35,623 nt of DNA from Tannerellaceae bacterium. Its GTDB lineage: Bacteria; Bacteroidota; Bacteroidia; Bacteroidales; Tannerellaceae. Positions 3,800-11,074 of the stretch are shown piece by piece. The notes beneath the pieces were generated by a model. The model saw only the letters and a list, made by a program, of their open reading frames with translations. It searched no databases and had not been told where the DNA came from. The translations under genes and the position numbers were made by a program. Location: positions 1-35,623 of the forward strand of contig JAITKB010000089.1 in the NCBI GenBank assembly GCA_031278605.1, given 5' to 3'. How positions within the stretch are numbered: position 1 is the stretch's first letter; each line of letters opens with the position of its first letter.

Positions 3800-3830
3800 T
3801 TTGTGGATTCTAAAACTATCTATACATTTG
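3800..3830 (+). promoter_or_regulatory. Promoter of the trp operon
   Basis: TTTG at 3800-3803 and TACATTTG at 3823-3830 are separated by exactly 19 nt, a perfect match to the Bacteroidota housekeeping promoter (TTTG-N19-TAnnTTTG). Transcription would start around 3836, about 32 nt before the leader-peptide ATG and about 205 nt before trpB, leaving room for the attenuator. Confidence 0.75.
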
Positions 3831-3867
3831 CGTCAGCAAATTAAGGTTGGATTTTTTTTGATTGTTA

Positions 3868-3930
3868 ATGAAACGAAGTTTTGTATTTTTTTTATGTTGG
3901 TGGCGTTCCTCGATGATTTTTGAGTCGTAA
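3868..3930 (+). CDS. trpL: trp operon leader peptide (tandem Trp codons)
   Basis: A 20-codon ORF reads MKRSFVFFLCWWRSSMIFES and ends in TAA. Codons 11 and 12 are both TGG (3898-3903), a rare codon used twice in a row in a very short peptide placed between the trp promoter and trpB. That is the hallmark of ribosome-mediated Trp attenuation. The Trp codons lie immediately before the 5' arm of hairpin 3905-3935, and the stop codon (3928-3930) sits just before the antiterminator arm at 3936-3945. The ORF has no independent function beyond sensing charged tRNA-Trp (inference). There is no strong Shine-Dalgarno, as is normal in this phylum. Confidence 0.8.
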   Translation: MKRSFVFFLCWWRSSMIFES

Positions 3931-4006
3931 GGAACACGGACTTTCATAGATTAGTTTTTAGAATTGAAGAAAGAGAGGTCTGTCGCACTTGCGGCAGGCC
4001 TCTCTT
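3905..4006 (+). promoter_or_regulatory. Trp attenuator: alternative RNA hairpins
   Basis: Three pairings are visible. Hairpin A pairs 3905-3913 with 3925-3935 (nine pairs, bulge of 2) directly after the Trp codons. The antiterminator pairs 3936-3945 with 3973-3983 (ten pairs including two G-U, one bulged G). The terminator pairs 3971-3986 with 3991-4006 and excludes the antiterminator. A ribosome that finishes the leader and sits at the stop (3928-3930) would cover 3936-3945 and allow the terminator. A ribosome stalled on the TGG codons would leave 3936-3945 free to sequester the terminator's 5' arm. Pairings are read from sequence; the switching is inferred. Confidence 0.7.
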
Positions 4007-4012
4007 GTTAGA
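3971..4012 (+). terminator. Attenuator terminator hairpin of the trp leader
   Basis: A perfect 16-bp stem (3971-3986 with 3991-4006, two G-U pairs) with a four-base loop ACTT lies 35 nt before trpB. The downstream tract is weak (TTGTTAG rather than a run of T), which is a caveat for intrinsic termination. It is too far from the GNAT stop and downstream of the trp promoter, so it belongs to the trp leader. Confidence 0.65.
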
Positions 4013-4041
4013 AAGAGAATCGAGAATTTATACATTAATAT

Positions 4042-5247
4042 ATGGAACAAACAGGTAAAGAAGAACAAAAAATGTATCACGTAAATAATAACGGCTATTA
4101 TGGCCGCTTCGGCGGAGCTTATGTGCCCGAAATTCTTCATCGCTGTGTGACGGAACTGAAGGATACTTATTCCGATGTGCTGGAAAGCACTTCGTTTGGG
4201 AAGGAATTCAATGAGTTGCTGAGGGATTATGCAGGACGACCTTCGCCGCTCTACTTCGCACAGAGGCTGAGTCGGAAGTACGGCTGCCATATCTATCTGA
4301 AAAGGGAGGACCTGAATCATACCGGTTCGCATAAAATAAATAATACCATCGGGCAGATCCTGCTGGCTCGCAGGATGGGTAAAACACGTATCATTGCCGA
4401 AACCGGCGCAGGACAGCATGGGGTGGCTACGGCTACCGTGTGTGCACGGATGGATATGGAATGTGTGGTGTATATGGGGAAAACCGATGTGACAAGGCAG
4501 CATGTGAATGTGCAGAAAATGGAGATGCTGGGCGCGAAGGTTGTGCCCGTTACTTCGGGCAATATGACGTTGAAGGATGCCACCAATGAGGCTATACGCG
4601 ACTGGTGTAGTCATCCTTCGAATACGTATTATATCATCGGATCTACCATGGGGCCGCATCCTTATCCAGACCTGGTGGCGCGATTGCAGTCGGTGATAAG
4701 CCGGGAAATACGCATGCAACTGCTTGAAAAAGAAGGGAGAAACTACCCAGATTATCTGGTGGCCTGCGTGGGAGGAGGAAGCAATGCGGCCGGAACAATC
4801 TATGATTATGTGGACGACAACCGGGTAAGGATTGTATTATCCGAAGCCAGTGGCAAAGGCCTTCACTCCGGTATGAGTGCCGCTACGACACAACTGGGAA
4901 GGCCGGGAATTATTCACGGCTCCCACACCCTGGTGATGCAAACAGACGACGGACAGATTCAAGAGCCTTACTCCATCTCGGCCGGATTGGATTACCCGGG
5001 CATCGGGCCGATGCATGCGCACTTATGGGAAACCAATCGGGTGGAAATGCTTTCGGTAAACGACAATGAGGCGCTGGAGGCTGCTTTTGAACTGACGCGT
5101 TTGGAAGGCATCATTCCCGCATTGGAGAGCGCACATGCTCTGGGAGTGCTGGGCAAATTGCCCTTCCGCGAAGAGGAGGTCGTTGTGCTTACCATCTCCG
5201 GACGCGGAGATAAAGACATGGAGACATACATAACAAATAAAAAATAA
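4042..5247 (+). CDS. trpB: Tryptophan synthase beta subunit
   Basis: TrpB joins indole and serine to make tryptophan using PLP. The 401-residue product has the complete family pattern: [12 protein letters not shown] near residue 21, the PLP lysine in HTGSHKINN (Lys98), [12 protein letters not shown] with the catalytic Glu120, the phosphate-binding loop GGGSNA near residue 240, and the C-terminal SGRGDKD. The start at 4042 gives a short charged lead ([10 protein letters not shown]); an in-frame ATG at 4072 is a possible alternative. It is the first structural gene after the attenuator, and trpE starts 4 nt after its stop. It normally works as an alpha2-beta2 complex with TrpA, which is missing from this operon. 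Confidence 0.97.
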
Positions 5248-8257: not shown

Positions 8258-9106
8258 ATGAATTCCTTTGTCCCACCCTCCTCCCCTTCCAAGGAAAAAG
8301 AGAACATACTCCACAGAATCCTGGCCGCCAAACGCCGGGAAGTAAAGCAGCAGAAGGAAGCCGTGCCCCTGACAGCTTTATGGTCCATGGCCGGCGAACG
8401 TATGGATCGTCCCACGTATTCCATGCGGAGTGCATTAGCCCGTTCGGAAACCGGAATTATTGCCGAGTTTAAGCGCAAATCACCCTCCAGGGGATGGCTG
8501 TTCCCCGGCGCCCTGATCGAGAACGTCCTGCCGGTTTATGTCGGGGGAGGCGCTTCGGCCTGCTCAGTGCTCACCGACGGGGATTTCTTCGGAGGCTCGC
8601 TCCGCGACCTGTGCACAGCCCGCAAACTTGTGAATATCCCGCTTCTGCGCAAGGATTTCATCGTAGACGAATACCAGCTTTTCCAAGCGCGGGCCATGGG
8701 CGCCGATGCCATCCTGCTCATTGCCGCCGCGCTTAGCCGCGAGGTCTGCGCCAGCCTGGCCCGGACGGCGCACAGCCTTCATTTGGAGGTATTGCTGGAG
8801 ATCCACAACGAGGAAGAACTCTCGTGGCTGAACCCGGACGTCGACATGCTGGGCGTGAATAACCGCAACCTCCACACGTTCCGCACCGATACGGCGATCT
8901 CGTTCCACCTGGCTGGGCACATCCTCCGGACATTCCCCCACGAGAACGCCCCGCTGCTGGTGTCCGAGAGCGGCATAAGCGAGGCGCACACCGTCAGGAG
9001 CCTGAAGCAAGCCGGCTACCGGGGCTTCCTGATTGGCGAGACCTTCATGAAGTCGCAACAACCCGGCCAGGCGCTTGCGGGATTTATCAGGGAGCTGAGG
9101 CAATGA
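8258..9106 (+). CDS. trpC: Indole-3-glycerol phosphate synthase
   Basis: TrpC closes the indole ring to form indole-3-glycerol phosphate. The 282-residue TIM barrel carries ILAAKRREVKQQK at the start, the catalytic lysine region IIAEFKRKSPSRG, LLRKDFIVDEYQ, ADAILLIAAAL, the substrate-binding NNRNLHTF, and LVSESGI near the end. It is slightly longer than usual because of about 15 extra N-terminal residues (ATG 8258, first residues NSFVPPSSPSKEKEN). The frame is also open upstream into trpD but nothing there looks native. Its TGA overlaps the trpF ATG (ATGA at 9103-9106), a sign of translational coupling. Confidence 0.95.
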   Translation: MNSFVPPSSPSKEKENILHRILAAKRREVKQQKEAVPLTALWSMAGERMDRPTYSMRSALARSETGIIAEFKRKSPSRGWLFPGALIENVLPVYVGGGASACSVLTDGDFFGGSLRDLCTARKLVNIPLLRKDFIVDEYQLFQARAMGADAILLIAAALSREVCASLARTAHSLHLEVLLEIHNEEELSWLNPDVDMLGVNNRNLHTFRTDTAISFHLAGHILRTFPHENAPLLVSESGISEAHTVRSLKQAGYRGFLIGETFMKSQQPGQALAGFIRELRQ

Positions 9107-9774
9107 TTATCAAGGTGTGCGGTATGCGCCGGATAGAGAATATCCTCCGTGTGGCCCGTCTGGGGGTAGATTGGATGGGGTTTATTCTCTGCCCGGAATC
9201 CAGGCGGTATGTACAGGAAGAGGAGGCCGAGGGCTTGCAGGCGAACCTGCCAAACCCTCCGTTTGCCAAGGTAGGCGTCTTTGTGGATGCCCCGGCCACA
9301 GAGATGACCGGGGCGGCTACCCGCTACGGGTTGGATTACCTTCAGCTACACGGCAACGAACCCCCGGCGCTTTGCCGTAGCTTGCAGCAGGAGGGACTCC
9401 GGCTCATTAAGGCCATCTCCGTAGCCGGGGCAGACGACCTGGAGCGGACTCGGCTTTACGAAGGTCTGGCAGATTACTTCCTTTTCGACACTAAATGCGA
9501 CACCCACGGAGGCTCCGGGCGTACGTTCGACTGGTCTGTGCTGGGCGCCTACCGGGGGGAGACGCCCTTCCTGCTCAGCGGAGGCCTGAGGCCCGAAAGC
9601 CTGGAAGCCATCCGTAGCTTTACCCATCCCCGCCTTGTTGGTTTCGACCTCAACAGCGGTTTTGAGATCGCTCCGGGAGAGAAGGATCTGGAGAAACTCA
9701 CCCCTTTTGTCCATGCCCTGCGCACTACGGTGAATCTGCCAGGGCTTTCTCCGGAAGGTCGTAAGGATCAATGA
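9103..9774 (+). CDS. trpF: Phosphoribosylanthranilate isomerase
   Basis: TrpF isomerises phosphoribosylanthranilate. The 223-residue barrel begins IIKVCGMRR with the catalytic Cys6, contains FVDAP, DYLQLHGNE, the GGLRPES phosphate loop and GFDLNSGFEIAPGEKDLEKL with the catalytic Asp. After the usual end of the family (EKDLEKLTPFVHAL) there are about 17 extra residues (RTTVNLPGLSPEGRKDQ), and the last 7 nt overlap the convergent gene at 9768. In Bacteroides-type operons trpA normally follows here; it does not. The tail may mark the rearrangement that removed it (inference). Confidence 0.93.
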   Translation: MIIKVCGMRRIENILRVARLGVDWMGFILCPESRRYVQEEEAEGLQANLPNPPFAKVGVFVDAPATEMTGAATRYGLDYLQLHGNEPPALCRSLQQEGLRLIKAISVAGADDLERTRLYEGLADYFLFDTKCDTHGGSGRTFDWSVLGAYRGETPFLLSGGLRPESLEAIRSFTHPRLVGFDLNSGFEIAPGEKDLEKLTPFVHALRTTVNLPGLSPEGRKDQ

Positions 9775-10067
9775 AAGATAAAGGTTTGAAACAAGGGGTT
9801 GTCCGACAGTTCTTCGTAAGCCTTGAAGGCGATGCCCACTCCACCGAAGAAGCTCCGGAGGCGTTCATCGGCATAGGGGGAGTAAATTTCCTTTACTTTT
9901 TTCGCTTGCATCCAGGCGGTAAAAGCCGTCATATCCTCTTTGGGTTCCAGGGAGGCATTTTCTACGCCTACCACCTTATCCTTTTCAACATGAAACACCA
10001 CCGCATGGTCTACATGATTCGCATGGGGGTGTTTCCTGGTCTTCAACAATAATGCAATCTTCTTCAT
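9768..10067 (-). CDS. Small protein resembling NifX/NifB-type dinitrogenase-cofactor domain (tentative)
   Basis: The 99-residue product begins KKIALLLKTRKHP and has a strand-rich pattern ending with VKEIYSPYADERLRSFFGGVGIAFKAYEEL. The overall shape (first strand IALLL, a central VFHVEKDKVVGVENAS, a late GxGIxxK helix) resembles the RNase H-like NifX/NafY fold found in non-nitrogen-fixing anaerobes. This is a fold-level impression only; no catalytic residues are known for such proteins. ATG 10067 is preferred; ATG 10085 (adding GNTRN) is possible. It lies 77 nt downstream of the CPBP protease gene on the same strand and overlaps the end of trpF by 7 nt. Confidence 0.5.
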   Translation of the reverse strand: MKKIALLLKTRKHPHANHVDHAVVFHVEKDKVVGVENASLEPKEDMTAFTAWMQAKKVKEIYSPYADERLRSFFGGVGIAFKAYEELSDNPLFQTFIFH

Positions 10068-10144
10068 ATTCCGGGTATTTCCCATATAACGGGAAGCATG
10101 CGGAAGATGATATACGGGAAATCCATAAGGAAGGTTATTGTTCT

Positions 10145-11074
10145 TTAATAATCTCGCAGGGGACTTTGTCTGACGCGCCGAAGACTCCAGCGGTATTTCC
10201 GGGCGAGGTAAAGCCCGGCAATCAGGCTGAGAACCACCAGCAGCAAGGTATCTTTCATGGGATGAATGTGCACCACTTCCAGCACCGCGTCGGTGGGCAG
10301 GGCCGAGGAGCGGTGGGTGGCAAAGAGGGAGAGGAAAATGTTGTTGGCCGCATGTAGCCCGATGCTCAGTTCGATCCCGTCGTCCAGCATGGCAACCAGG
10401 CCGAAAAACAATCCGAACCAGATATACTGGGGCATGATGGCCCAGAAGCCAAACTCGGCAATTTCGGGATTGAACCCGTGCATGAGACCAAAGCACAGGG
10501 CGGGGACGAGGAGGGCAATCCAGCGTTTCCGGGTCAGGGCAGCAAAACCCTGCATGAGGTATCCCCGGAACAAGAACTCCTCGCTTGCGGTCTGAAGGGG
10601 AATCATCACCAGGGAGATAAGGCATAGGGGGATAAAACGTAGGAGGTCGAATTGCACCACATAATCTTCCCGACACAGGAGGAAATCGGCTGCGTAGGTA
10701 ATCGCCATCAGGGCAAACCACACGCCGGCGCCCGTCCATACACGCCCTGTGCGCAGGTTTTTCCTTCCGTTCACCACCTCCGGGAAGGTGCGCCGGTGCA
10801 GTATCTTGACCATCTGAACGGTGAGAAGCAGAGAGATAGCCGTGGAAAGCAACAAGAGGAAGAAGCGGAGGTTGTTCCCCAGGTAAGCTCCGGTGATTGC
10901 CGCATTATCGGCAGGGAGGTTGCCGATGCCGTGTTCCATAAGGTACGGCAGCAGGGAAACGAGAATCAAAGGAATGGAGCCGATCATCGGCCAGAGCAGG
11001 ATAGCGCAAAGAAAGACGACCACATATTTCCATACCTGGTTGGCGTCGTCGAAGGCGCGTTCAAGAAATTTCAT
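10145..11074 (-). CDS. CPBP-family intramembrane metalloprotease (CAAX/Abi type)
   Basis: The 309-residue polytopic membrane protein has about eight hydrophobic segments. It carries the glutamate motif TASEEFLFRG (Glu165, Glu166, Arg170), the first His motif FGLMHG (His199) and the second GLHAANN (His241, Asn245), matching the conserved motifs of the Rce1-like CPBP family. Family members cleave prenylated proteins in eukaryotes; bacterial members are linked to bacteriocin self-immunity or membrane-protein processing, and the role here is unknown. ATG 11074 is chosen because the charged amphipathic start (KFLERAFDD) leads into the first membrane segment; a longer in-frame start at 11134 would lie upstream of the predicted promoter. 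Confidence 0.85.
   Translation of the reverse strand: MKFLERAFDDANQVWKYVVVFLCAILLWPMIGSIPLILVSLLPYLMEHGIGNLPADNAAITGAYLGNNLRFFLLLLSTAISLLLTVQMVKILHRRTFPEVVNGRKNLRTGRVWTGAGVWFALMAITYAADFLLCREDYVVQFDLLRFIPLCLISLVMIPLQTASEEFLFRGYLMQGFAALTRKRWIALLVPALCFGLMHGFNPEIAEFGFWAIMPQYIWFGLFFGLVAMLDDGIELSIGLHAANNIFLSLFATHRSSALPTDAVLEVVHIHPMKDTLLLVVLSLIAGLYLARKYRWSLRRVRQSPLRDY

Follow-up and report, generated by a model that had tools for sequence, protein, structure and literature searches.

A probable ribosome-mediated tryptophan attenuator ahead of trpB in a Tannerellaceae genome, with antiterminator pairings that may depart from the Escherichia coli scheme

Introduction

What decides whether transcription continues from the leader into trpB at this Tannerellaceae locus, and do the parts of the putative switch pair as they do in Escherichia coli? 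In the E. coli trp scheme, hairpin 1 competes with an antiterminator, which takes the ascending arm of the terminator. A sequence-only reading of the locus had proposed a Trp attenuator whose antiterminator does not overlap hairpin 1 and is blocked by a ribosome resting at the leader stop codon. Leaders of a related sort are already on record in the phylum. The Bacteroid-trp leader RNA, to which that reading did not refer, is catalogued as Rfam family RF01692 (Weinberg et al. 2010, PMC2864571). In F. psychrophilum, strong indications of leader-peptide attenuation have been described upstream of amino-acid operons (PMC9723704), and a Bacteroid-Trp RNA ahead of the trp operon has been likened to the E. 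coli leader (PMC6414381); the available portions of these two accounts do not describe an antiterminator wiring.

Materials and methods

The window, that is the whole stretch of 35,623 nucleotides that was analysed, is contig C69; the genome to which it belongs measures 2.36 Mb and has a rated completeness of 84.5%. Regions upstream of trpB were collected from 80 named loci and further relatives, turned to the coding strand and deduplicated; one locus (L024) was too short and nine duplicates were dropped, which gave 138 regions. Two of the 106 loci with a leader carrying adjacent Trp codons (a WW leader) gave no terminator row, leaving 104 loci and 105 rows, from which one extra ORF of L046 and the loci L144, L135 and L141 were left out before the tests on 101 leaders. 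Covariation counts were made on 93 leaders, the other eight being without the arm motif. For an out-of-sample set, 395 genomes of the phylum gave 46 RF01692 matches at E <= 0.01, and 32 of these were used; one member, L170, is on a contig equal in length to that of L012, apparently the same one, and is therefore not independent. The pairing segments called 2 and 4 below were first spotted by eye in the same leaders that served for most tests, and only the 32-locus test used others. Switching was modelled by folding the growing nascent RNA with assumed ribosome footprints masked, as equilibrium calculations.

Results and discussion

The trp operon and its leader ORF

All features described for the window lie on its forward strand. 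The gene trpB (4042..5247; TIGR00263 at 571 bits against a cut-off of 392) is the first structural gene of an operon trpB-E-G-D-C-F, identified from ORFs and NCBIfam matches, the last ORF of which ends at 9774. The genes after trpB are best matches to trpE, trpG, trpD, trpC and trpF, with trpE and trpF scoring below the curated cut-offs of their best models. The closest trpB in the named collection belongs to a Tannerellaceae MAG (81%), and many of the next-best are from Parabacteroides. In the stretch 9103-10739 of the window, no trpA follows trpF, the next listed ORF being on the opposite strand, and a trpA match is present on another contig (G000:C134:16285-17022).

A promoter-like sequence of the Bacteroidetes type, TTTG-N19-TACATTTG, occupies 3800..3830 (TTTG at 3800-3803, TACATTTG at 3823-3830) and follows the consensus of that phylum. 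Its TAnnTTTG form was found within 75 nt ahead of the leader start in 89 of the 101 homologues, as compared with 1-9 in 20 shuffled sets. Downstream is the leader ORF, MKRSFVFFLCWWRSSMIFES, of 20 codons (3868..3930), with adjacent TGG codons at 3898 and 3901 and a TAA stop at 3928-3930. Short ORFs with adjacent Trp codons precede trpB in 106 of the 138 deduplicated upstream regions, an approximate count which takes in chance ORFs (e.g. L144) and leaves out L104, in whose genome an RF01692 match over the cut-off sits some 340 nt ahead of trpB. In ten shuffled sets the number of such ORFs was 0-6, and a chance ORF was rejected on that comparison. By eye, the typical leader peptide reads MxxxLVNTYWWWRLLQLxxS. 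The 32 upstream regions lacking a WW ORF include one masked locus (L049) and, by eye among those listed, cases where trpB lies close behind another gene. A short ORF with a run of the regulatory codon stands before a biosynthetic operon, as in known attenuators.

Hairpin 1 and the putative terminator

Folding of the transcript 3836-4010 was compared with 200 dinucleotide shuffles; the real sequence had a z of -4.1 and no shuffle was as good. Hairpin 1, formed by segments 1 and 2, spans 3905..3935 (3905-3910:3930-3935 plus 3913-3918:3923-3928) and sequesters the antiterminator strand described below. The 1:2 pairing exceeds 95% of shuffles in 47/101 homologues, and an outer stem before the TGG run passes the shuffle test in 55/101 and fails it in the window copy.

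The putative terminator hairpin (3971..4006) is a 16-bp stem with arms 3971-3986:3991-4006. The leader ORF, the TGG pair, both hairpins, the terminator stem and the promoter-like sequence were found by sequence inspection and folding where the sequence-only reading had placed them. A terminator-type hairpin at or above the score used was present in 103/105 leader rows, and 86/101 leaders have a T-rich tail of at least 6 T in 8 after the stem. In the window copy the stem is strong and sits between leader and trpB at the orthologous place, but the U-tract behind it is weak: no stretch of 8 has more than 5 T, which is true of 15/101 leaders, this copy included. No terminator was picked up here by a simple scan for which a T-rich tail was obligatory. 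A translational switch was ranked low, given the 35 nt between the end of the hairpin and trpB and the T-rich tails in those 86 leaders.

The weak U-tract is also what a remnant that no longer regulates in this genome might display. The score of the window copy against RF01692 (22 bits, cut-off 49) and two loci of the same genus (L087 and L131) without a WW ORF could be read in the same way. Against such decay speaks the window copy itself, which has kept its promoter, ORF, WW pair and stop position intact, together with both alternative structures, and whose modelled switch is strong; we regard loss of function here as very improbable. As a separate observation, a hairpin resembling a terminator seems, by eye, to persist upstream of trpB in L087 and L131, where the Trp-Trp leader ORF is missing, a possible decay of the switch in those two loci.

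A probable divergent member of the Bacteroid-trp kind

At the gathering threshold, Rfam gave no match in the window. In a permissive search the window copy was recovered as RF01692 at the 22 bits mentioned above, below the family threshold, and it was the sole RF01692 match of its own genome at E <= 10. Ten of 16 trpB loci tested pass the RF01692 cut-off. Over-cut-off matches occur in 33 of 100 genomes (its own counted among the 100), five of 17 in the same genus, and all 33 lie shortly upstream of a trpB match. The window copy shares with RF01692 its orthologous position ahead of trpB, in the leader of a trp gene, an ORF with Trp codons and a long hairpin around and after the TGG run. A new RNA class was rejected, since both the permissive search and the orthologous loci point to RF01692. 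The window copy is an ortholog that the RF01692 model misses and is not filed here as an RF01692 hit; the element is most likely not of a new kind but of one already known in the phylum.

The RF01692 model, with 131 positions, ends inside the ascending arm of the terminator and comprises neither its loop nor its descending arm. It thus stops short of the part that would decide termination, in addition to missing divergent orthologs such as the present one. The comparisons below suggest that this catalogued, little-studied RNA family works as a complete attenuator.

A proposed conserved antiterminator directed at the terminator loop and descending arm

Comparison of the homologues revealed a conserved strand, segment 2 (GUCGUAAG, 3924..3931), which holds the leader stop codon and forms the 3' side of hairpin 1 in the window copy. 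Its target, identified by covariation, is segment 4 (CUUGCGGC, 3988..3995), comprising the terminator loop and the start of the descending arm. The helix 3924-3931:3988-3995 exceeds 95% of shuffles in 96 of the 101 homologous leaders. When leaders are anchored at the TGG run, the motif GTCGT(A/G)AG starts 15-22 nt past the last TGG in 100/101; with the preceding A included, at least 7 of 9 letters match in 86/101, and the leader stop overlaps the motif in 66/101. On the other side, the terminator loop with the first arm bases is typically CTT(A/G)CG(A/G)C or CTCACGAC.

With the register set by the arm alone, segments 2 and 4 form standard pairs in 688 of 744 cells, as compared with 166-217 of 558-651 when slid. 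One position varies: among 93 leaders, the segment 2 base and its loop partner (3929 with 3990 in the window copy) are A-T in 58, G-C in 30, G-T in 2 and other in 3. By parsimony on a 65-tip TrpB tree, the two covarying bases changed 5 and 4 times, with 4 branches shared, and when partners were swapped between species, mean pairing was 6.93 of 8 (maximum 7.06 in 500) as against 7.24 for the real partners. In the usual terminator stem the covarying loop base has no partner, and the stem therefore does not explain the covariation. Scanning of leaders against the two targets gave a mean z of -2.20 for the loop and descending arm (56/101 at p<0.05) and of 0.03 for the ascending arm, where sequestration of the E. 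coli type was found in 2/101 at p<0.05 and is not a conserved feature; in the window copy alone, the ascending-arm helix had a p of 0.12.

That the clearest covariation falls on a base left unpaired by the terminator stem would also be expected if segment 2 bound the loop of an intact terminator as a pseudoknot, stabilising or pausing it, instead of acting as an antiterminator. The five adjoining arm positions are likewise of little help against this, as segment 2 is nearly invariant there and pairs are mostly kept by wobble, with little covariation. The pairing nevertheless runs on into the descending arm in 85-93 of 93 leaders at those five positions, the arm part still pairs in L155, L156 and L157, which are distant elements of different sequence, and the top of the stem and the 8-bp invasion are mutually exclusive. 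The pseudoknot was accordingly judged improbable, and the loop and descending-arm pairing is treated below as an antiterminator.

The inner helix of the window copy

The antiterminator of the sequence-only reading was a 10-pair helix of 3936-3945 with 3973-3983, the latter being part of the ascending arm of the terminator. This helix does form (3936-3941:3978-3983 plus 3942-3945:3973-3976) when 3930-3990 is folded alone, at -10.4 kcal/mol, and under modelling it is highly probable when the ribosome is stalled and also, as far as 3993, when no ribosome is present. Related inner pairing exceeds 95% of shuffles in 3/11 leaders of the same genus, the strongest being L002 (-14.0), and the window copy stands at 6%. 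If this helix were the only antiterminator, it would be independent of hairpin 1 and blocked only by a ribosome at the stop. The homologues speak against that scheme: the inner helix exceeds 95% of shuffles in just 11/101, against 96/101 for the conserved helix, and the independent-hairpin scheme was set aside on this contrast. Moreover, in the window copy 3924-3931:3988-3995 encloses 3936-3945:3973-3983, so that both make one composite antiterminator, and with no ribosome and the inner helix alone open, the terminator needs 5 rather than 10 descending-arm bases to prevail. An antiterminator confined to the inner helix is thus unlikely, and 3936..3945 is best described as an inner, lineage-limited extension of segment 2.

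The absence of overlap between hairpin 1 and the antiterminator holds for this inner half only. The conserved strand 3924-3931 lies within hairpin 1, and hairpin 1 and the antiterminator therefore compete and are mutually exclusive, as in E. coli; switching without such competition, as had been proposed, is not borne out. The idea that the antiterminator strand would lie under a ribosome resting at the stop was sound and fits 3924-3931 better, given the overlap of stop and motif noted above. As for conservation, which the sequence-only reading had named as a test of its scheme, the TGG pair is kept in most loci, and the base-pairing of 3936-3945 with 3973-3983 in few.

In L002, the nearest relative found by TrpB (81%), segment 2 is altered, the conserved helix is lost, P(2:4) is 0.28 and the modelled switch fails, yet the inner helix is strong at the -14.0 given above. 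For this reason the balance between the antiterminator halves may be shifting within this lineage.

Modelled switching and proposed mechanism

With a ribosome at the Trp codons of the window copy, the modelled probability of the 2:4 pairing is 0.98-1.00 at 3993-3997; with a ribosome at the stop it is 0, and the terminator reaches 0.95 at 3995. With no ribosome, hairpin 1 stands at 0.97-1.00 and the 2:4 pairing at no more than 0.02, while the terminator rises from 0.59 at 3995 to 0.99 at 3997. With the stem out to at least 4001, the terminator prevails under all modelled ribosome states, so antitermination must be kinetic. Over the 101 leaders, mean terminator onset comes after 9.3 descending-arm bases with the ribosome stalled, 4.9 with it at the stop and 4.6 without a ribosome. 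A stalled ribosome delays onset relative to one at the stop in 97/101 leaders, with 3 ties and 1 leader in the opposite order, and relative to no ribosome in 99/101, with 2 ties. Shuffling of segment 2 brought the stalled onset to a mean of 5.7 instead of 9.3 bases, although 184/303 shuffled controls still reached P>0.5. Covariation and modelling together thus describe an antiterminator with mutually exclusive pairing, which a ribosome at the Trp codons would release and one at the stop would block.

From these structures we infer ribosome stalling, termination and a response to tryptophan as follows. When Trp-tRNA is low, the ribosome would stall at TGG 3898/3901, mask the 5' side of hairpin 1 and free 3924-3945. 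As the terminator region emerges, 3936-3945 would bind the ascending arm, the loop and descending arm would be taken by 3924-3931, and this composite antiterminator would hold back the terminator so that trpB to trpF are transcribed. When Trp-tRNA is ample, the ribosome at stop 3928 would cover 3924-3931, or depart and let hairpin 1 re-form over it; the terminator would then fold and transcription stop near 4006. In this gut-type bacterium, such a device would act to stop synthesis of the tryptophan enzymes when tryptophan is plentiful.

Conservation of the WW leader and the alternative structures make a Trp attenuator ahead of trpB, as first proposed, the best reading of the locus. We consider it very likely that the element attenuates transcription of the trp operon by way of the ribosome and has its orthologs in the Bacteroid-trp leader RNAs; it is real and probably works.

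Comparison with E. coli and reach of the wiring

Trp codons, competition between hairpin 1 and an antiterminator, and a terminator before the first structural gene are all features shared with E. coli trpL. The target of the antiterminator differs: it is the ascending arm in E. coli, whereas in the Bacteroidales type it is mainly the loop and descending arm. In a single test on E. coli trpL (K-12 MG1655), z was -1.6 for the ascending arm and +1.8 for the loop plus descending arm (p 0.07 and 0.99, respectively). Comparison with relatives, based on sequence, therefore suggests that the on and off parts pair differently both from the E. coli switch and from the scheme proposed earlier for this DNA. 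We lean towards a model for the Bacteroidales, and for part of a second family of the same class, in which the antiterminator would attack through the loop, which emerges first and could serve as a toehold, and through the descending arm, the stop-codon strand being complementary both to segment 1 and to the loop. This is a specific and testable wiring, unlike the textbook one.

Among open-licence texts without their supplements, no title or start of an abstract concerned a loop or descending-arm antiterminator in Bacteroidetes trp leaders, and the accessible parts of PMC4833913, PMC7366714, PMC2965389 and PMC2395257 do not describe this wiring; with that scope, this is weak evidence of novelty.

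All 32 RF01692-matched loci of the out-of-sample set have a WW leader; four weak RF01692 matches (L158, L159, L163 and L164) yielded none. Pairing of the segment 2 type with the loop and descending arm reached p<0.05 in 5/32 by pair count and 16/32 by energy, the latter made up of 13/22 in family f46, 2/3 in f42 (of the same order) and 1/7 in f43, f45 and f47 together. The test of the wiring was thus mixed: outside the order, some members of one family had it, and scarcely any of three further families did.

Other leaders

Ten Trp leaders at nine loci ahead of trpE-like or TrpB-like genes were also considered on raw duplex energy; six had duplexes of -11 kcal/mol or stronger, in differing registers, and four did not. 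L155 (reverse strand) has two tandem Trp leaders, each with a terminator hairpin, ahead of what looks by eye like a trpE gene. A leader with three Trp codons (WWW) and a terminator hairpin precede the TrpB-like genes (PRK12391/TIGR01415) of L156 and L157, where the sequence is different and the complementarity of segment 2 to the loop and descending arm is strong.

At hisG (L150), no leader of the run types sought turned up. On contig C22 (L151) of the genome that holds the window, a leader ORF, MTNNFLHNILFVVVLLSLSR, at 102-164 lies ahead of an ilvD ORF starting at 262. The segment after its stop, GGAGAAAGG, is by eye the perfect complement of the ascending arm of the downstream terminator, CCTTTCTCC, so that a leader with wiring resembling that of E. 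coli appears, by eye, to be present in the same genome as the trpB leader.
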